Positions 5,344-50,967 of a stretch of 64,000 bases of DNA are shown here, in pieces. Every line of letters begins with the position of its first letter. The first letter of the stretch is position 1. Origin of the DNA: Eubacterium maltosivorans (GTDB lineage Bacteria > Bacillota > Clostridia > Eubacteriales > Eubacteriaceae); NCBI RefSeq assembly GCF_002441855.2, contig NZ_CP029487.1:2666001-2730000 (forward strand). The letters run 5' to 3'. The notes beneath the pieces are model-generated. The model had not been told where the DNA came from, searched no databases, and saw nothing but the letters and a program-made list of their open reading frames with translations. Made by a program: the position numbers and the translations under genes.

Positions 5344-6027
5344 TCAGACAATCCGCCCGTCCCTCACTACCACCGTCCGGCTGCCACACTCTGCCGAATC
5401 GGCAGAGTGTGTGACCATAAGAATTGTCACACCGTTTTCATGGTTAATGCGCTGCAAAAGCGTCATGATCTCTCCCCCGGTCTTGCTGTCGAGATTGCCG
5501 GTAGGCTCGTCGGCAAACAGAATCTCCGGATCATTGACCAAAGCCCGGGCTATGGCTACACGCTGCTGCTGACCGCCAGAAAGCTCACGCGGCGTGTGCT
5601 TTCTTCGGTTCGTAAGCCCCACGATCTCCAGAAGATTGTCGAGCCGGGGCTGTAGGGCTCGGCGGCTTTTACCGTCCAAAAGCACAGGCAGCAGAATATT
5701 TTCCTCAACGGTCAGATTTGGTATCAAGTTATAAAACTGAAAGACAAAACCAATATTTCTGCGGCGCAACAGGCTTTTCCGTTTATCATCCCACTGCGAA
5801 ATATCCTGTCCCTGCAGGATAACACTGCCGTCTGTGGGCTCATCAAGCCCTCCCAAAATATAGAGCAGCGTGCTTTTCCCAGAGCCCGATGGCCCCATGA
5901 TGGATACAAATTCGCCCTGATATATTTCCAGGGAAATATTTTTCAGAACCGAGGTCGACACTTCACCCATCTGGTAATCTTTAATGATGTGGCGAGCTTC
6001 CACTGCTATTTTTTTCATATGCTTCAT
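5344..6027 (-). CDS. ABC transporter ATP-binding protein, MacB/LolD type
   Basis: A 227-aa ATPase with Walker A MGPSGSGKST, signature LSGGQQQR, Walker B ILFADEPTGNLD and the H-loop in MVTHSADSA. The start is placed at MKHMKKIAVEARH (6027), which AAAGGAG precedes by a good distance; a longer reading from 6060 would overlap the permease gene and has no ribosome site. The permease gene at 6038-8533 is 10 bp upstream, so both form one operon, probably exporting peptides, lipids or antimicrobials. The two-component genes further upstream are the likely controllers. Confidence 0.93.
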   Translation of the reverse strand: MKHMKKIAVEARHIIKDYQMGEVSTSVLKNISLEIYQGEFVSIMGPSGSGKSTLLYILGGLDEPTDGSVILQGQDISQWDDKRKSLLRRRNIGFVFQFYNLIPNLTVEENILLPVLLDGKSRRALQPRLDNLLEIVGLTNRRKHTPRELSGGQQQRVAIARALVNDPEILFADEPTGNLDSKTGGEIMTLLQRINHENGVTILMVTHSADSAECGSRTVVVRDGRIV

Positions 6028-6037
6028 TTTTTCTCCT

Positions 6038-8533
6038 TTACTCACATTTAATTTCTTCAACCAGTTCTATCTTTGACCCTTTGATCACCGGAACCACTGC
6101 CCCTGCCAGATTGATGAGGACTCCTGCAAGTCCGGCGGCCAGAAACACCTTTATATCCAGTGTCGGCGTCATGGCGATCTGCGGTCCCGCCACCAGAAAG
6201 ATGGTCTGAATTAGCAGCCATGAGACCAGCACACCGATAAACGCTCCGATAATACCTGAGGAAAAGCCTTCCAGAAGGGTCATTTTAATATTTTGTCCAT
6301 TACTCATTCCGACAGATTTATACATGGCAATGGCACGCCGCTTCTGCAAATAATTGATGAGCAGATTATTGATCACTCCCACGGCAGCCAGAAAAAGGAT
6401 AAAATATGTCAGCTTGTGCATAGGCGACAGAAAAGCGCTAACCAAACTCATGGCGTCCTTGTTAAACTCCTCAACGGTCCGGCTCCAGTTTTCCTTTTCG
6501 CCGAAAAGATTGCGGATATGGATCATCACCGCATCGGGATCATCGGCTGTGTAGGCCAAAAATCCATATTCTGACTGACCAAAATCCGATGCGGCACAGG
6601 CTGCCGGAATCACTGCCTGTGCGTCATCCGCCCGGGATTCCATGCTGCCAATCACCCTGTAATCAAAAGCTCTGCCATTCGCTGACAGCTCAATGGTATC
6701 ACCGACCCCAAGGCCTCGCTGCTTCATGGTGTCTGCATTTAAGAGGATCACTCTGCCCTGTCCAAAGCCAGATAGCGCGGAATTTTTCGCCGCTGTATCA
6801 GAGTATTTGATGGCAAGCATGGCAGTGTACTGCCCCAGGTCCTCCACAGCCTCCAGACGATCAAAGAGAACACCATCTCCTTCAATCTCGCTATTCATGA
6901 CAAACATGGGCATAACCTCATGGACTCCGTCAATCTCCTGCACCTCTTTAACAAACGCTGGTGTCATCTGCGCGTCGGCAAAACCATCAAGTGCTGCCCC
7001 ATTAAATACATCGCCGATATACTGATTCACAAAGCTCCCCACCACACTGATGGCAATGATGGCCGAAAGGCTGATAAAAAGCAGGACAATATTCTGATGG
7101 ATGCTGTGGTTCTTTCTCAGGTTTCGGGCTGCCAGCATTCCCTCGTTTCCAAAGCAGCAGCCATATAATTTCTCCATAACCCAGGCGGTCCCGTCCACCA
7201 CCGGCGGGATCATCAAAATCGCCGCGGCAAGAATACCCAGCAGCGAGAATCCTCCAACAAGAAACAGCCCATTATTCTCAAGGAGCAGCAGACGCGGCGC
7301 GGCGATGGAGATCATCATCATTAATGTACCCACAACCAGCCGTACCCGTGTTGACGCCCGCTTCTGTGTCACACTGCCGAGCACCACCTCCTTGACTGGC
7401 AGCCCGCTGGCACGGCGCGCGGGAATATATGCGCTGAGCAGCGGCACTAGCACTGCCACAGCGGATGACAGCAGCACATTGAGCGGCGACACCACCATGG
7501 GAATAACGATTCCCTGGGAAAGTGATTCTCCCAGGCCCTGGAGCAGCAGACTCAATACCACTGCCCCAACCGGAACCGCAATGATAACACTAAAAACGCC
7601 ATAAACCAGGCTTTCCATCAGCAATATTCCTGTGACTGCCCGCCTTGTGGCGCCAATACTCCTGAAGGTCCCAATGACTGGAAGCCGTTCCAGTGTGATT
7701 ACCTGATAACTGCTAAAAATAATAAATACACTCATAACCAGGGAGAAAAAGCTGATCAGAAAAAAAGGCATGGATTTTTGCCGGGCATCAGCTTGAACCT
7801 GCGCTTCATTGTACGTTTTTTCAACCGTATACTGTGCATTTGGCAGGGCTTCGGAAAGTGAATTGACCAGCTGCCCTGTCGACACGGTCTCTTCTGGCGC
7901 CACCAGTATCCGGTTATAGCCCTCTGCCACTCCATCCAGCCCTCTCAGACATTCCTCAGAGACAAGCGCGTTAAAGCCCCGCGTATTTCTCAAAAACACC
8001 GTGTCATAAGCCGCGACAGACGCGACTCGAAAATTTCTTTCCGTCCCTCCAAGCTCAAGTCTCAGGGTGTCACCAGCCTTCACCTGATATTTTGAGGTAA
8101 ATTTTTCCGGCAAAATAATCTCATCTTCATTAAGTGGGCTGAACTTTTCGCCTTCCAGCAGCCGCGGTTCATTGATGGCGGACAAATCCCCTAAATCAGC
8201 CGCAAACAGATCAAAATTCTCGTAGTATCCCTCTTCGCTGTAAAGAGCTTTTGCCTCAAGCATTCCCACAGCTTTGCCGATCTCCGGCAAATCAGGAAGC
8301 TCCTCTTTACTTATCTTTCCCGCTCCCCCCTCGCTCGTATGAGCCGTTACAGACACTGAAGCACTTCCAGCCATTCCTTTTGCCATTTTACGCTGGGCGG
8401 CCTCATAAGAATCACCGATGCACAGCGAGACAAAAAGCAGCACAGCAGAGAGTACAATGGACAGCAGCATCACCGCTGTCCGCAGCTTTCGCTCACGAAC
8501 GTTGTTTAAAATATACCTGAATATAATTTTCAA
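6038..8533 (-). CDS. FtsX-family ABC transporter permease
   Basis: An 831-aa permease with two FtsX cores, partner of the ATPase downstream. After the first transmembrane segment (LRTAVMLLSIVLSAVLLFVSLCIG, residues 17-40) comes a large extracellular MacB-like region to about residue 250. FtsX helices follow at about 255-385 (IGTFRSIGATRRAV is the typical cytoplasmic loop). There is a second extracellular region, then the final FtsX block after LTYFILFLAAVGVINNLLI, containing YKSVGMSNGQNIKM. Ten-helix permeases of this size in Firmicutes usually serve bacitracin- or lantibiotic-type resistance or lipoprotein export. The substrate cannot be read from sequence. Confidence 0.9.
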   Translation of the reverse strand: MKIIFRYILNNVRERKLRTAVMLLSIVLSAVLLFVSLCIGDSYEAAQRKMAKGMAGSASVSVTAHTSEGGAGKISKEELPDLPEIGKAVGMLEAKALYSEEGYYENFDLFAADLGDLSAINEPRLLEGEKFSPLNEDEIILPEKFTSKYQVKAGDTLRLELGGTERNFRVASVAAYDTVFLRNTRGFNALVSEECLRGLDGVAEGYNRILVAPEETVSTGQLVNSLSEALPNAQYTVEKTYNEAQVQADARQKSMPFFLISFFSLVMSVFIIFSSYQVITLERLPVIGTFRSIGATRRAVTGILLMESLVYGVFSVIIAVPVGAVVLSLLLQGLGESLSQGIVIPMVVSPLNVLLSSAVAVLVPLLSAYIPARRASGLPVKEVVLGSVTQKRASTRVRLVVGTLMMMISIAAPRLLLLENNGLFLVGGFSLLGILAAAILMIPPVVDGTAWVMEKLYGCCFGNEGMLAARNLRKNHSIHQNIVLLFISLSAIIAISVVGSFVNQYIGDVFNGAALDGFADAQMTPAFVKEVQEIDGVHEVMPMFVMNSEIEGDGVLFDRLEAVEDLGQYTAMLAIKYSDTAAKNSALSGFGQGRVILLNADTMKQRGLGVGDTIELSANGRAFDYRVIGSMESRADDAQAVIPAACAASDFGQSEYGFLAYTADDPDAVMIHIRNLFGEKENWSRTVEEFNKDAMSLVSAFLSPMHKLTYFILFLAAVGVINNLLINYLQKRRAIAMYKSVGMSNGQNIKMTLLEGFSSGIIGAFIGVLVSWLLIQTIFLVAGPQIAMTPTLDIKVFLAAGLAGVLINLAGAVVPVIKGSKIELVEEIKCE

Positions 8534-8565
8534 AATCTCACCTGCTTTCCTGAGTTTTGCCGCAC

Positions 8566-8603
8566 GAAAAAACCGGCGGCTTACTCTAAGAATAAACCGC
8601 CGG
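8566..8603 (-). terminator. Terminator after histidine kinase gene
   Basis: On the minus strand CCGGCGG and CCGCCGG arms (8597-8603 and 8573-8579) enclose a 17-nt loop and are followed by six T. This separates the regulator/kinase transcript from the ABC operon. Confidence 0.75.
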
Positions 8604-8638
8604 CCTTACGTCTGCTTTCAACAAACCTTATTTTAATC

Positions 8639-10036
8639 TTAATTTTGAGGAAGCGTGACTTTAAACGTAGTCCCGGCCCCCAGACAGCTGTCCACCGAAA
8701 TTTTTCCGCCGTGCAGCGAGATGATCTCCCGGGCAATGGCCATGCCAAGGCCCGTCCCTCCGCTGTCTGCGCCGGCCGAGACACCCCGGTAATAACGGTC
8801 AAAAAGCCGGTTTATCTGCGCTTCAGTCATCCCCTCTCCCTCATCCCATATCCGGATTTGACAGGGAACTCCTGAAATAATTTCTACCCCGATCCTCGCA
8901 TCGGCGCCGCTGTACAGAAGTGTATTGATGAGCAGGTTATTAAGGGCCCGCTTCATAAGTCCGGGGTCAATGTTTAAAATCTGACTGCCCTCTGCCTCAA
9001 ATTCTACAGTGCGTCCGGCATGACGGGGATCATTCAGACAGTCAATCACCAGCTCCCGAACAAACCGGATGATGTCCATGGTTTGCAGATTAAGGGGCAT
9101 CATGCCATTTTCAAGCTGATAGGTAAGCTTCAGATCATTGATGAGCGTCTCGGCGCAGGCGGTATTCTTCAAAATCGCGGCGCTGTATTTTTTAAGCTCG
9201 GTGCTGTCCGGCGTATCATCTGAAGCGGCCAGCAGTTCGGCATAGCCCCGTATGGGCGACAGCGGCGTTTTAAGATCATGTGTAATATTGGCGATCCATT
9301 CTTTCCTCAGCTGCTCGTCTTTCCTGCGGGCTTCCTCTGCCATTTGAAGGGTCCTGTCCAATGTATTTAAACTGACATGAATATCCTGAAAGACGCCTTT
9401 TTCCTGTATTGGCATATAACAGCGGCCGGCGATTTCATCCACTGCTTCAGTCATCTTTGAAAGCCTGCGGGTAACGGCAAAGCCATAGGCGAGCCCGAGA
9501 ACAGCGGTCAGGAAAATCACCGCGCCCGCACCAAACAGCGCATAGGACTTCCCGGAGGAAAAACGCCCAGCATTGACATTCATCGTGATTTTTGCAATAT
9601 CCATGGGAAAGCCAATGAGATAAGTCCAGCCCGTACCGCTATCCTCTGCCACACCAGAAAAAACAGCTTTGCTTCCACGACTGTCCAAAGTGTTTAGCAG
9701 CCTGTCCGGGGAATACTCCTCTGGCTGCCCTTCCGGCACAGAGACGCCCTTAACCACGCGGCCAGTACTGTCCAGAATCTGAAGCCAGAGGCCGTTATCC
9801 TTCAGTGCTTCAAACCCCCTCTGGGTGATTACCGGCTCACCCTCTAAAAAAATGATCTCCTCTGAAAAAGCCCTGGTAAACTCAGCAGGCCAGTCGCTGC
9901 GGACAATTTCCCCATCTGACTTCTGGACAGTCACGGCATAGACCACCATGCCCGCCCCGGCGGCCAGAATAAGAATCATGAGGATTAAAAATAACCCGTA
10001 GATGTGAAAAGCCGATTTATAGCCGGACCGTTTCAT
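8639..10036 (-). CDS. Two-component sensor histidine kinase
   Basis: A 465-aa membrane kinase. A helix at residues 14-36 and another near 172-194 enclose an extracellular sensor domain of about 135 residues. A HAMP-like linker follows (RRLSKMTEAVDEIAGR), then HisKA with the phosphorylated His in ITHDLKTPLSPIRGY (near 252), and HATPase_c with N-box RALNNLLINTLLYS, G1 IRIWDEGEGM and G2 GGTGLGMAIAREI. The gene overlaps the response regulator gene by 4 bp. The long extracellular domain differs from the short BceS type, so it senses something outside the membrane rather than flux through the transporter alone. Confidence 0.94.
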   Translation of the reverse strand: MKRSGYKSAFHIYGLFLILMILILAAGAGMVVYAVTVQKSDGEIVRSDWPAEFTRAFSEEIIFLEGEPVITQRGFEALKDNGLWLQILDSTGRVVKGVSVPEGQPEEYSPDRLLNTLDSRGSKAVFSGVAEDSGTGWTYLIGFPMDIAKITMNVNAGRFSSGKSYALFGAGAVIFLTAVLGLAYGFAVTRRLSKMTEAVDEIAGRCYMPIQEKGVFQDIHVSLNTLDRTLQMAEEARRKDEQLRKEWIANITHDLKTPLSPIRGYAELLAASDDTPDSTELKKYSAAILKNTACAETLINDLKLTYQLENGMMPLNLQTMDIIRFVRELVIDCLNDPRHAGRTVEFEAEGSQILNIDPGLMKRALNNLLINTLLYSGADARIGVEIISGVPCQIRIWDEGEGMTEAQINRLFDRYYRGVSAGADSGGTGLGMAIAREIISLHGGKISVDSCLGAGTTFKVTLPQN

Positions 10037-10752
10037 TGCCCTGTCCCCACAGCCAGCCGATAGCCCAGTCCCTTAACGGTCAGGATAAGATCTGGACTTG
10101 AAGGGTCTTTCTCAATCTTTTCCCGAAGATGGTGGATATGGACCATAATGGTATTGTCACACACTGCGCTCAGCTCACCCCATACCTGCTCATAAAGCCG
10201 GTCTTTACTGATAATCTTTCCCGCGTTTTCGGCCAGATATAAAAGAATGCCGAACTCCCGGGCAGTCAGCTCAAGCTCCCGCCCATTCTGGTAAACACGG
10301 CTGCCGTCCACGTCAATCTCCAGCCCGCCAGCGTTTATCCGTCGGCCAGCGGCCGCATCTGCTGTTTTATTGTATTCCATCCGCCGGAGCTGGGCCTTGA
10401 CGCGAAAAACCAGTTCCTTTGGACTGAAGGGCTTGGTGATATAATCGTCTCCTCCGCTGCCGAGCCCGAGAATTTTATCCACATCATCGTTCCTCGCAGA
10501 TAAAAACAGTACTGGACAATAGGAAAATTCACGGATTGCCCGGCAGACCTCGATTCCGTCCATGTCTGGCAGCATGATGTCAAGAATTACCACATCCGGC
10601 GCATTTTTCTCACAAACCGCAAGCGCTTCACTTCCTGTAAACGCCCTGTTAACACAGCGGAAGCCCTCTTTTCTGAGGGCTGTTTCCACTAATTCGGTAA
10701 TATCCGGCTCATCATCGACCAACAAAATTCTTTTGTCATAAACGCTTTCCAT
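10033..10752 (-). CDS. Response regulator, OmpR/PhoB family
   Basis: A 239-aa DNA-binding regulator. The receiver domain has the acidic pair in LLVDDEPDI, the phosphorylated Asp in VVILDIMLPDMDG (about residue 55), the Ser of LFLSARNDD and the Lys of ITKPFSPKE. The C-terminal winged helix runs from about residue 135 (LELTAREFGILLYLAEN ... VHIHHLREKIEKDPSSPDLILTVKGLGYRL). The start is preceded by AAAGGAGGAGCC. It is transcribed with the kinase and is the probable activator of the adjacent ABC genes. Confidence 0.95.
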   Translation of the reverse strand: MESVYDKRILLVDDEPDITELVETALRKEGFRCVNRAFTGSEALAVCEKNAPDVVILDIMLPDMDGIEVCRAIREFSYCPVLFLSARNDDVDKILGLGSGGDDYITKPFSPKELVFRVKAQLRRMEYNKTADAAAGRRINAGGLEIDVDGSRVYQNGRELELTAREFGILLYLAENAGKIISKDRLYEQVWGELSAVCDNTIMVHIHHLREKIEKDPSSPDLILTVKGLGYRLAVGTGQ

Positions 10753-13565: not shown

Positions 13566-15401
13566 TCAGAAAACCGCGCGTATCTTTTCTGCCAGATATC
13601 CGGCGCCGCCCCGGCCCTCAATATCCACTGCCGCAGCGACTACCAGCAGTGGATTCTCGGCTGCCGGGTCTGTATAAAACATGGCGCACAGAGCCGTATC
13701 CTGATTTTTCGCGGCATCCGCTGAACCTTTCTGTAACGCTGTACCTGTTTTTCCCGCGAGGGCTCTTCCCTTTGAGCTTTTTTCTGCCTGCGCGAGGCTT
13801 TTTCTGATGTTGTCGGCCTTTTCCTGGGAAATCACATTCTTTTTCCAGTACTTCACCATCGGGTTGGCATCATATTTGATATAGGGTTGAACCATATTAC
13901 CGTCATTCACAAGGGCAGAGTAAATTAACGCCAGATGCAGGGGACTGGCGGCCATGCCCGTTGTGCCGTTCCCCGCTGCCGTCAGGTCGCCGTCAATTGT
14001 ACCGTTTTCTGAAATTTTGGAGACTTCCATAGTAAAATCAAAGGGCAGTGCTTCTCCAAAGCCAAGCTTTTTGAGCTGTTCGACGTACTCCTCGCCGGTT
14101 TTCACGCCTGCCTCAAGTGTTGCTGGCTGGATAAGCTCACCCGGCGCATAGACTTTCACAAACCGGTTAAGAAGCGGATTGTCCGGATCGCTGTTCAGGC
14201 TGTCCTTTTCAGCATGACTCATGCCAAGAATAAAAGCATTGGGATTATAGGACGGTGTGCTGACCAAGGCCAGCACCGCGCCGTTTTTCGGATCAATGGC
14301 GGCCGCGGCGCTTTTATCCCTGGCAAGCTGATCGTAAAGGGCTGTCTGAAGCCCGGTATCGATGGTCGTCTGGACATCAAATCCCTTTACTGGTGAGCTT
14401 TCACACAGAACCCGGCTTGTCTTAATCCCGTCACTGCTGGTATCGTTGACGGTGATGGCGCCTCCGTCCTTTCCTCTCAGCTGACGGTCAAAAATCTTTT
14501 CAAGCCCGCTTTTGCCTACAATGCTCGTATCCCGGTAGTCTCCTTCACCCTTACGCGCTTCCAACTCCTCAGCCGTGATCGCGCCGATATAACCTGTCAG
14601 ATGCGCAGCTTTTTCCCCATAGGGATAGCTGCGCACCGCTGCTTCTCCAATCATTACACCCGGCACCTGCAGAAGCGCCGCCTCCAGCCCCGCGTCGATT
14701 TCTGGCAGTGTTTTTACCGGAACATAAATTTCCTCTGTCACCCAGGAAGCGGACAGCGCATCCTCAATATCTTCTGTGGTAATCCCCAGAATTCCGGCCA
14801 CTGCCGCCAGATCTGCCGCCCTGGTCTCTGCGTTTATTTTTCCAGGGACAAAGCCTACCGAGGGGGCTGTGCCGGGTCCTGCCAGCATATTGCCGTCCTT
14901 ATCCAGAATACTTCCCCGCTCTGCTGCCGTTGTGGTAACGCTTACTTTGGTGGTCTCGCTAAGCCCCGGCAAAATGACCGCTGAATTCCAGACAAGCCGG
15001 TACTCTCCGAAGAAGGTGTCCTTCCTCAGCCTCACATTGCCTGGGTTGGCAAGCACCCCGGCCACAGTTTCCATCTTCAGGTTATAATAAGCCTGCTGCT
15101 GTTTTGAATCAATTTTTTCAACACTCATGACCTCCAGCTTCAAATCCCTGGCTTCAATGCCCTCATAGATATTTTTATTCCGCGTGATAAAATCCTCCCG
15201 GCTGATGAGCTTTTTAGAATCATCACTGATGAGCAGATACATTTTGACGTAATCCCGCTCTTCTACTGCCTTGAAGTACCGTTCCAGAGCACGCTCCGGC
15301 GTGTTGACTGAACGATAGGCCGCAAGGGCCAGCGCTGCGACGATGACCACCAGCGCCGCTATACCGACAGCCATCTTGATTTTTTTACCGTCTGCTTTCA
15401 T
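13566..15401 (-). CDS. MecA-like penicillin-binding protein lacking catalytic SxxK and SxN motifs
   Basis: A 611-aa membrane-anchored protein: one N-terminal helix (residues 10-28), an NTF2-like MecA_N domain (about 32-145), a dimerisation domain (TTAAERGSILDKDGNMLAGP onward) and a transpeptidase fold from about 320. In class B PBPs the text after PLLNRF reads PGSTFK-like with the Ser nucleophile and Lys; here it is YAPGELIQPATL, so both are replaced. The following segment that should carry SxN is shortened (GVKTGEEYVEQLKKLGFG). Only the third motif remains, AGKTGTALQ. It therefore cannot acylate in the normal way and may be a scaffold or sensor. The ribosome site is GGAGGTGAAACC. Confidence 0.88.
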   Translation of the reverse strand: MKADGKKIKMAVGIAALVVIVAALALAAYRSVNTPERALERYFKAVEERDYVKMYLLISDDSKKLISREDFITRNKNIYEGIEARDLKLEVMSVEKIDSKQQQAYYNLKMETVAGVLANPGNVRLRKDTFFGEYRLVWNSAVILPGLSETTKVSVTTTAAERGSILDKDGNMLAGPGTAPSVGFVPGKINAETRAADLAAVAGILGITTEDIEDALSASWVTEEIYVPVKTLPEIDAGLEAALLQVPGVMIGEAAVRSYPYGEKAAHLTGYIGAITAEELEARKGEGDYRDTSIVGKSGLEKIFDRQLRGKDGGAITVNDTSSDGIKTSRVLCESSPVKGFDVQTTIDTGLQTALYDQLARDKSAAAAIDPKNGAVLALVSTPSYNPNAFILGMSHAEKDSLNSDPDNPLLNRFVKVYAPGELIQPATLEAGVKTGEEYVEQLKKLGFGEALPFDFTMEVSKISENGTIDGDLTAAGNGTTGMAASPLHLALIYSALVNDGNMVQPYIKYDANPMVKYWKKNVISQEKADNIRKSLAQAEKSSKGRALAGKTGTALQKGSADAAKNQDTALCAMFYTDPAAENPLLVVAAAVDIEGRGGAGYLAEKIRAVF

Positions 15402-15427
15402 GGTTTCACCTCCACTTCTTTAAGCTT

Positions 15428-15456
15428 ATTATATGATGATTATACTTTGACGTAAA
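15428..15456 (-). promoter_or_regulatory. Promoter of PBP-like gene
   Basis: Minus strand TTTACG (15451-15456), 17 bp, TATAAT (15428-15433), 27 bp before the start codon. Confidence 0.7.
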
Positions 15457-15476: not shown

Positions 15477-15506
15477 TAAAAAAGATGCTCCTTACTGAAG
15501 CATCTT
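15477..15506 (-). terminator. Terminator of the AraC/ASCH/PEBP operon
   Basis: Minus-strand arms AAGATGCT and AGCATCTT (15499-15506, 15482-15489) followed by six T, about 50 bp after the PEBP stop. Confidence 0.8.
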
Positions 15507-15555: not shown

Positions 15556-16059
15556 TCAATCTCTGTATGTCCCCTTGATGGTGACCTGATCTAAAACATG
15601 GCCTTCCATCTGGCGGTACAGCTCGTTGTAATAAAAGCCGTTTTCCAATTCCAGCAGCGTATTCAGGGCATACACATGGATTTCGTAGATATGCGGCGCG
15701 TTCGGCGGCGCCATACCTCCGTAAAAGGACGACAACGCTCTGCTCTGTCTGCCTCCCTGGATACTCATGCAGCTGTTCGCACCTTGGACAAAATCCGTGG
15801 CAGTCTGGCTCTCATTTTCCAGAAGCTCATTACGCGTAATGTTTGCCGCCGTCCAGTGAATCCATGAAAAGCCGCCTGTGACAGGGAAAGCGTCCTTATC
15901 CTCCAGAACCAGCGCAAAGGATTTTGTGCCTTCTGGTGCGTCCTCAATTTTCAGCGGTAAGGAATATGTCGGCATACCGTTTTCGTTAAACTGGCTGCCG
16001 CGTTTTCCGTATTTGTCCTCAATAATGCCGTTGACAATTCCAGTGCTTGTTACAATCAT
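15556..16059 (-). CDS. YbhB/YbcL family Raf kinase inhibitor-like protein (PEBP)
   Basis: A 167-aa phosphatidylethanolamine-binding-protein fold. The motif for the anion pocket is visible: SFALVLEDKDAFPVTGGFSWIHWTAANI (D-x-D-A-P-like stretch and xHW), then the loop YGGMAPPNAPHIYEIHVYALN, equivalent to GxxGPxPPxGxHRY. Function in bacteria is unknown; ligand binding is likely. A GGGAGGCAG ribosome site precedes the start. It is the last gene of a three-gene unit with the ASCH-like and AraC genes (gaps of 19 and 15 bp). Confidence 0.9.
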   Translation of the reverse strand: MIVTSTGIVNGIIEDKYGKRGSQFNENGMPTYSLPLKIEDAPEGTKSFALVLEDKDAFPVTGGFSWIHWTAANITRNELLENESQTATDFVQGANSCMSIQGGRQSRALSSFYGGMAPPNAPHIYEIHVYALNTLLELENGFYYNELYRQMEGHVLDQVTIKGTYRD

Positions 16060-16078: not shown

Positions 16079-16534
16079 TTATTTTAATTTTGATTTCTCA
16101 TAGTTGTAGGGAATACTGCTCCCCACCACCACGTCCTCAATCTTTTCAATGATCAGCCAGTCGTCCATATTGCCCTGATGGTCGAAAGCCAGAGGCTCAA
16201 TAGCCTCCACCTTTTCAAATTCTACCAGACAGAGACATTTTTTATGCCAGCGTTTTTTCTGTTTTTCGGATAAATTAAGCCTGTCCTGGTTTGACTCAAG
16301 GGCTTCATCAATGGCTTCCTCTGAAAGCTTGACATAATTTTTCACACTCTTTACCGCCGCCCTGGCCGAGATGGTTTTGCTGCCTTTTGTCATAAAGTAT
16401 AGTTTCTCACCCTCAAACACCCGGCTGTGGGGGATCTTCCTGCCGGCCGCGCCCCTCACGACCATGGTCTTTGTGCCATTCATAATCTTTTCCAATACTT
16501 TTTCTTTGTCATCGCAATAAACCAAATGTTCCAT
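16079..16534 (-). CDS. ASCH-like/PUA-fold hypothetical protein
   Basis: A 151-aa soluble protein. The pattern LEKIMNGTKTMVVRGAAGRKIPHSRVFEGEKLYFMTKGSKTISARAAVKSV resembles ASCH/PUA-type RNA-binding folds, in which a short helix is followed by a beta barrel containing a G.K.~~Rg motif. The middle is strongly charged (LSEEAIDEALESNQDRLNLSEKQKKRWHKK). I do not recognise a specific function. It lies between the AraC-type regulator and the PEBP gene, with GGAGGCAGTA before the start. Confidence 0.75.
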   Translation of the reverse strand: MEHLVYCDDKEKVLEKIMNGTKTMVVRGAAGRKIPHSRVFEGEKLYFMTKGSKTISARAAVKSVKNYVKLSEEAIDEALESNQDRLNLSEKQKKRWHKKCLCLVEFEKVEAIEPLAFDHQGNMDDWLIIEKIEDVVVGSSIPYNYEKSKLK

Positions 16535-50688: not shown

Positions 50689-50967
50689 AAAAAAAGCCTG
50701 CCCCTTACACAAGGGACAAGCTTCATAAGCCTGCGGTACCACCCAAATTGACGATAAATCGCCCACTCAAGTTCGTATACTAACATACACGCTCCCTTTA
50801 TAACGGGTGGAGATCCCGTCAGAGATACTTGGCAATCTGCCTTTTGCTCTGCCCTCATAAGCCCATTCAACCGACCGCATCTCACCGCTTTTCCACCGTC
50901 CGCGGCTCTCTATCCAGATGACATGCCTGTTTACTTACTCTTAATCACAGGTTTAATTTATATTATG
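50689..50967 (-). ncRNA. T-box riboswitch leader, probable tryptophan specifier
   Basis: On the minus strand the conserved T-box TGGGTGGTACCGCAG (50731-50745) is followed by a terminator, GCTTGTCCC...GGGGCAGGC with seven T (50689-50721). Upstream lie stem III (ACGGG-N7-CCCGT, around 50804-50822) and stem I with the AGAGAG element. A UGG triplet in GTTGAATGGGC (near 50860-50870), just before a short closing stem (TCAT/ATGA), is in the right place for the specifier codon. Uncharged tRNA-Trp would favour the antiterminator and switch on the importer genes. The specifier reading is inference from position and gene context. Confidence 0.88.

Follow-up and report, generated by a model that had tools for sequence, protein, structure and literature searches.

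S. aureus PBP2a (MecA) and enterococcal PBP5/PBP4 are active low-affinity transpeptidases that combine a MecA_N domain, a pedestal and a transpeptidase (TP) fold. The division of a class B penicillin-binding protein's (PBP's) job between structure and catalysis has so far been approached through active-site mutants. In B. subtilis, PBP 2B is reported to have a structural role in division that is independent of catalysis, seen with the S309A mutant, whilst PBP3 supplies the activity (PMC5656894). PBP3 of C. difficile acts on septum synthesis without needing its catalytic activity (PMC12539705, PMC12713402) and forms a complex with PBP1 (PMC12713402). In the path of activation the FtsI pedestal contacts an outer loop of FtsW, and the pedestal-SEDS interface drives activation (PMC8078798).

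Here we describe psi, a gene in a 64,000-nucleotide stretch of the Eubacterium maltosivorans genome (the window; this genome is G000 below). It encodes a pseudoenzyme, conserved in a group of gut bacteria, of this well-known family, the source of methicillin resistance; it is new as far as our searches reach. No natural catalytically inactive PBP homologue was found described in the open literature searched, E. limosum included, although we do not claim absence from print.

Domains and active site of psi

The earlier note had reported an intact frame of 611 codons encoding a MecA-like protein that keeps the MecA_N domain, the transpeptidase fold and KTGT. All of this was found again; the frame starts at ATG and lies on the minus strand, which had been left unstated (Table 1). 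Pfam models for MecA_N (PF05223, 62.4 bits against a cut-off of 22), PBP_dimer (PF03717, 119 bits) and the transpeptidase (PF00905, 106.7 bits, best stretch 438-604) all score above cut-off, and the predicted structure matches 7bn9 over residues 40-611. By descent and fold, psi is a MecA/PBP3-type class B PBP. Its pedestal domain may bind a SEDS protein, two of which are encoded in its own genome. The domains are those of PBP2a and PBP5/PBP4, but psi falls far below the cut-offs of the NCBIfam models for these proteins (best 355 of 700 bits). It scores 280 of 750 bits for the equivalog MECA_PBP2A and does not qualify as a PBP2a-type resistance protein. A MecA-like annotation need not imply resistance or transpeptidase activity.

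Table 1. Features of psi and its upstream region, in window coordinates.
Feature	Position	Strand	Basis or remark
psi gene, 611 aa	13566..15401	-	MecA/PBP3-type class B PBP pseudoenzyme
Promoter TTTACG-17-TATAAT	15428..15456	-	both hexamers kept in 4/4 orthologues
Ribosome-binding site GGAGGTGA	15406..15413	-	sequence; exact GGAGG in G000 and G002; sites of G001 and G003 differ from it by one base
Terminator-like stem-loop between psi and upstream gene	15482..15506	-	largely conserved in orthologue alignment
N-terminal membrane-anchor helix, residues 5-32	15306..15389	-	secondary structure of model
MecA_N (NTF2-like) domain, residues 34-150	14952..15302	-	Pfam
PBP_dimer / pedestal domain, residues 158-321	14439..14930	-	Pfam
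Shortened TP domain, residues 362-611	13569..14318	-	Pfam, alignment, model
APGELIQP replacing SxxK motif, residues 419-426	14124..14147	-	invariant 4/4; 5/8 codons differ synonymously
Junction of 59-residue deletion removing SxN, residues 436/437	14093..14094	-	alignment
Retained KTGT, residues 551-554	13740..13751	-	alignment

The active site has been lost at several points, including the two that the earlier note had singled out. At the PGSxxKP position, where intact relatives read PGSSFKP, psi reads PGELIQP (residues 420-426), and both the serine and the lysine of SxxK are replaced by ELIQ in all four psi orthologues. The SxN motif is deleted in all four: 59 residues of the intact paralogue A (443-501, YSDN included) have no counterpart in psi. 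Alignment with intact relatives also revealed that a further 9 residues are absent just before KTGT and that the GQG loop is lost, with NGTTGM in its place. KTGT, kept in 4/4, is the sole surviving motif of an active DD-transpeptidase. The invariance of APGELIQP across the four orthologues was matched in a fraction of 0.023 of shuffles of invariant TP columns, and that of KTGT in 0.157.

The AlphaFold2 model of psi (49 sequences) has a mean pLDDT of 89.2 and a pTM of 0.82. In it the first residues of a helix (421-427) fall within the replaced motif, and KTGT is part of a strand (547-557). The closest solved protein, by sequence (E 1.5e-90) and by fold, is B. subtilis PBP3 (PbpC, PDB 7bn9), which has the same domain order. 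Foldseek gave 7bn9_A as the best PDB match (TM 0.80/0.78), and VIA-align gave Z 43.1 against 7bn9_B (502 aligned, rmsd 4.2) and Z of about 38-41 against PBP2a and PBP5 entries. Unlike psi, B. subtilis PBP3 keeps SxxK in the alignment and supplies transpeptidase activity (PMC5656894). The model supports a TP domain that is predicted to fold, although AlphaFold can be confident on unstable variants of a well-known fold.

Orthologues, selection and origin

psi was found in four of five genus genomes, its own included. The other three orthologues are 83-84% identical to it over residues 1-611; that of G003 belongs to Eubacterium callanderi FD (contig NZ_FRBP01000015.1). It was not found in the fifth, G004, which is 80% complete. 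The earlier note had suggested looking for the substitution in orthologues, since intact motifs in close relatives would point to a local lesion. All four syntenic orthologues carry the lesion: PGELIQP is present, the SxN stretch absent, KTGT kept and the frame intact, with one indel after KTGT among them. Because the same lesion is shared by four separate genomes, neither a sequencing or assembly error nor a recent local lesion accounts for it.

Outside the genus no orthologue was found in 67 genomes of the order, 391 of the class, 398 of the phylum and 398 of another class (overlapping sets, at the E limits used). A contig scan with two narrow peptide patterns returned only E. callanderi and a weak Paenibacillus match.

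The locus is syntenic in 4/4: psi is flanked by a branched-chain amino acid transporter gene and, at its other end, by a shared series of conserved genes. G002 and G003 carry an inserted MerR-ABC gene set towards the transporter. The gene is monocistronic, adjoins no wall-synthesis gene and evolves faster than its neighbours. At 15556-16059 the window encodes a YbhB-like phosphatidylethanolamine-binding protein, which Pfam also calls 'PBP' but which is unrelated to penicillin-binding proteins and was not found beside psi in G002. It is followed at 16079-16534 by a protein of 151 aa that no Pfam model matches, although three related genomes have it at 88-95% identity.

Selection was measured by Nei-Gojobori dN/dS pooled over six pairs of orthologues (the pairs are not independent), with codon bootstrap intervals. 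Whole-protein dN/dS of psi was 0.136 [0.112-0.166]. In the N half (34-361) psi and paralogue A were alike, at 0.074 [0.052-0.102] and 0.082 [0.061-0.106], whereas in the TP domain (362-611) psi reached 0.215 [0.163-0.279] against 0.051 [0.033-0.072] for A. The TP/N ratio was thus 2.9 [1.8-4.6] in psi and 0.63 [0.38-1.01] in A, the ratios of A being approximate because some of its dS values are near saturation. The anchor segment (residues 1-33) was the least constrained part of psi, at 0.31. Conserved columns gave a similar picture: of those conserved at ≥90% in 45 intact homologues, all four psi proteins keep 35/38 in the N half and 30/62 in the TP domain. Purifying selection therefore acts on psi, mainly on the MecA_N and pedestal half, where it equals that on the active-looking paralogue, whilst the TP domain is relaxed but kept under constraint. 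Since its dN/dS is still near 0.2, the TP domain may be doing something of its own.

Pairwise dS among the four psi genes ranges from 0.2 to 0.86 with no stop or frameshift in any, whereas sequences randomly substituted to dS 0.2, 0.5 and 0.86 gained a stop in 300/300 runs at each level. The orthologues share their lesion and are under purifying selection, as a conserved pseudoenzyme should be. Together with unbroken frames, a dN/dS far under 1 in each region and a kept promoter and synteny, this bears out the earlier view of psi as a pseudoenzyme rather than a decayed gene. As to the promoter and ribosome site, which had been judged good, the hexamers are unchanged in all four genomes, and GGAGG is exact in two and one base off in two.

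A 49-protein tree unites the four psi in a single clade (100/100) on a stem of 0.66 changes per column. This clade adjoins the group of paralogue A and two sister-genus proteins (99/98), with weak order inside the group (82/57). psi and A are 54% identical over the N half and 47% over the TP domain, against 57% and 72% between A and its sister-genus homologue. psi would descend from an active PBP3/PBP2a-type lineage through a duplication that preceded the split of the four species.

Rarity of motif loss and a second case

Motifs were checked in non-psi homologues, mostly the best-scoring rows of the homologue searches. SxxK is kept in 118/119 of them, and in 8 other genus paralogues, all intact. 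In the first set, the serine and lysine were present in 47/47 non-psi rows; L021 and L022, which are PBP2-like and not MecA-type, were then left out. A wider set, which re-uses L010-L020 and L066-L091 of the first, kept SxxK in 90/91 distinct sequences after removal of 5 duplicates, and an additional 28/28 homologues were intact, completing the 118/119. Homologues from G1138 and G843 had at first seemed odd, but their motifs are intact on reading.

The exception, L131:19-1641, comes from a genome of the same phylum (G537), in which it is the sole MecA-type match at E 1e-30. It is a MecA-type protein with a complete 540-aa frame and a model pLDDT of 86.1. At the SxxK position it reads YPLDSVLPET, with a serine but no lysine, and it lacks the SxN and KTG segments. 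Against five full-length intact relatives (a sixth, L141, was read as a fragment and left out), its N half is 48-53% identical and its TP domain 38-45%. Intact control pairs show the opposite, the TP domain being more similar than the N half. L131 thus resembles psi in its intact frame, its loss of SxxK and SxN and its better conserved N half. It differs in its independent origin, in having lost KTG too, and in being confined to a single genome, with five full-length members of its family intact. No orthologue with the same loss was found in its family, so decay is harder to exclude for L131 than for psi. L131, from a distant genome, is an independent second loss.

We tentatively propose, rating it a little below an even chance, that MecA/PBP3-type class B PBPs have at least twice, independently, become non-catalytic subunits dedicated to regulating peptidoglycan synthesis. 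If true, nature has separated the structural from the catalytic role, which so far have been split only by mutagenesis in model bacteria.

Candidate roles of psi

Because catalysis is lost whilst the N-terminal/pedestal half is fully constrained, psi is expected to act by binding. The constraint pattern and the analogy with dead class B PBPs suggest that it is probably a membrane-anchored, non-catalytic scaffold or regulator of a peptidoglycan synthase complex. It would bind this complex through its N-terminal/pedestal half, the candidate partners being a SEDS polymerase, the FtsI-type PBP, an intact MecA-type paralogue or a class A PBP. Once bound, it would scaffold, activate or tune the complex, with active PBPs doing the cross-linking. 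The dead B. subtilis PBP 2B S309A and C. difficile PBP3 S299A are likewise class B PBPs working without catalysis. These are however laboratory mutants of active enzymes, whereas the loss in psi is natural, multi-site and fixed; C. difficile PBP3 is likened to psi only as a class B PBP, whether or not it is MecA-type. Against the scaffold stand the anchor, where contact with a SEDS partner would be made but constraint is lowest, the constraint left on the TP domain, and the restriction of the gene to four genomes of one genus with no wall-synthesis neighbour. Naturally dead, conserved and constrained in its N-terminal/pedestal half, psi offers a clean system for the structural role.

The other PBPs of the genome give this reading a setting. 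Transpeptidase-domain proteins found in G000 are one of 800 aa with a PASTA-like tail, which we take to be the FtsI-type PBP; A (692 aa), B (686 aa) and psi (611 aa); two of 939 and 723 aa, presumably class A-like judging from sequence; and one of 588 aa (L095), which we assume to be BlaR1-like from its peptidase-like region and C-terminal STYK domain. MreC gave no match in G000 (control positive in 8/14 genomes), and all proteins of the five genus genomes fall short of the MrdA/PBP2 cut-off, the best scores being those of paralogues of groups A, B and C. These homology searches suggest that MecA-type paralogues serve as housekeeping class B PBPs, and they may be the only ones in G000 besides the FtsI type. 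If so, a structural division of labour among them is plausible.

The leading alternative, itself unlikely, is that psi senses peptidoglycan or the state of the wall: its MecA_N/pedestal half would bind peptidoglycan, like the allosteric domain of PBP2a, and pass on the signal through a conformational change in the TP domain or a partner. The fully constrained N half fits this, as do a structure of PBP2a with a peptidoglycan analogue at the allosteric site (3zg5) and the binding of peptidoglycan by an NTF2 domain in Campylobacter Pgp2 (PMC8038945). Yet Pfam finds no signalling domain in psi, there is no linked regulator, and the two-component and ABC genes of the window lie 3-8 kb off, not in one operon with it. 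Of the functions guessed at in the earlier note, scaffolding fits the constraint pattern best. Wall-stress sensing through the retained N-terminal half is possible. Sensing of beta-lactams has been weakened, the acylated serine and SxN being gone and a separate BlaR1-like protein with intact STYK being present. Covalent beta-lactam sensing by psi appears unlikely, and psi is not a BlaR1/MecR1-type sensor: it has no SxxK, and Pfam yields only MecA_N, PBP_dimer and Transpeptidase, with no M56 peptidase domain.

Alternatively, psi might dimerise or compete with A or B and so damp or place their activity. Modulation of paralogues is a common route for duplicated enzymes, both intact paralogues coexist with psi in the genome and the psi pedestal is conserved. 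G003, however, has psi and A but no B-type copy among the matches listed, and we regard this role as quite unlikely.

It is improbable that psi is a slowly decaying remnant, under weak selection and on its way out. A TP dN/dS four times that of A, the indel after KTGT, evolution faster than that of the neighbours and the failure to find psi in G004 (80% complete) would all suit such a remnant, but a dN/dS of 0.14 overall and 0.07 in the N half, the kept promoter and the frames that stayed open in four species, where every random run gained a stop, do not. Least probable of all is a non-covalent binder of beta-lactams or D-Ala-D-Ala that uses the kept KTGT strand, invariant in 4/4, for four invariant residues are not unusual in the TP domain (shuffle fraction 0.157), SxN and the serine are missing, and a BlaR1-like protein whose motifs are intact is encoded in the genome.

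That protein, L095:388-2154 (G000:C1 near 2391586-2392215), had drawn attention as a possible second degenerate protein by its short PF00905 match, but its STYK, SVN and KTGS motifs proved intact; it adjoins a putative lipoprotein gene. Elsewhere in the window, positions 5344-10752 encode an ABC ATPase, an FtsX-like permease, a histidine kinase and a response regulator, a module that resembles antibiotic-sensing transporters. All three relatives have kept its kinase and regulator genes, and the permease too where the stretch reaches it. A T-box leader (RF00230, 94.4 bits, just above the cut-off of 93) lies on the minus strand at 50709-50957.
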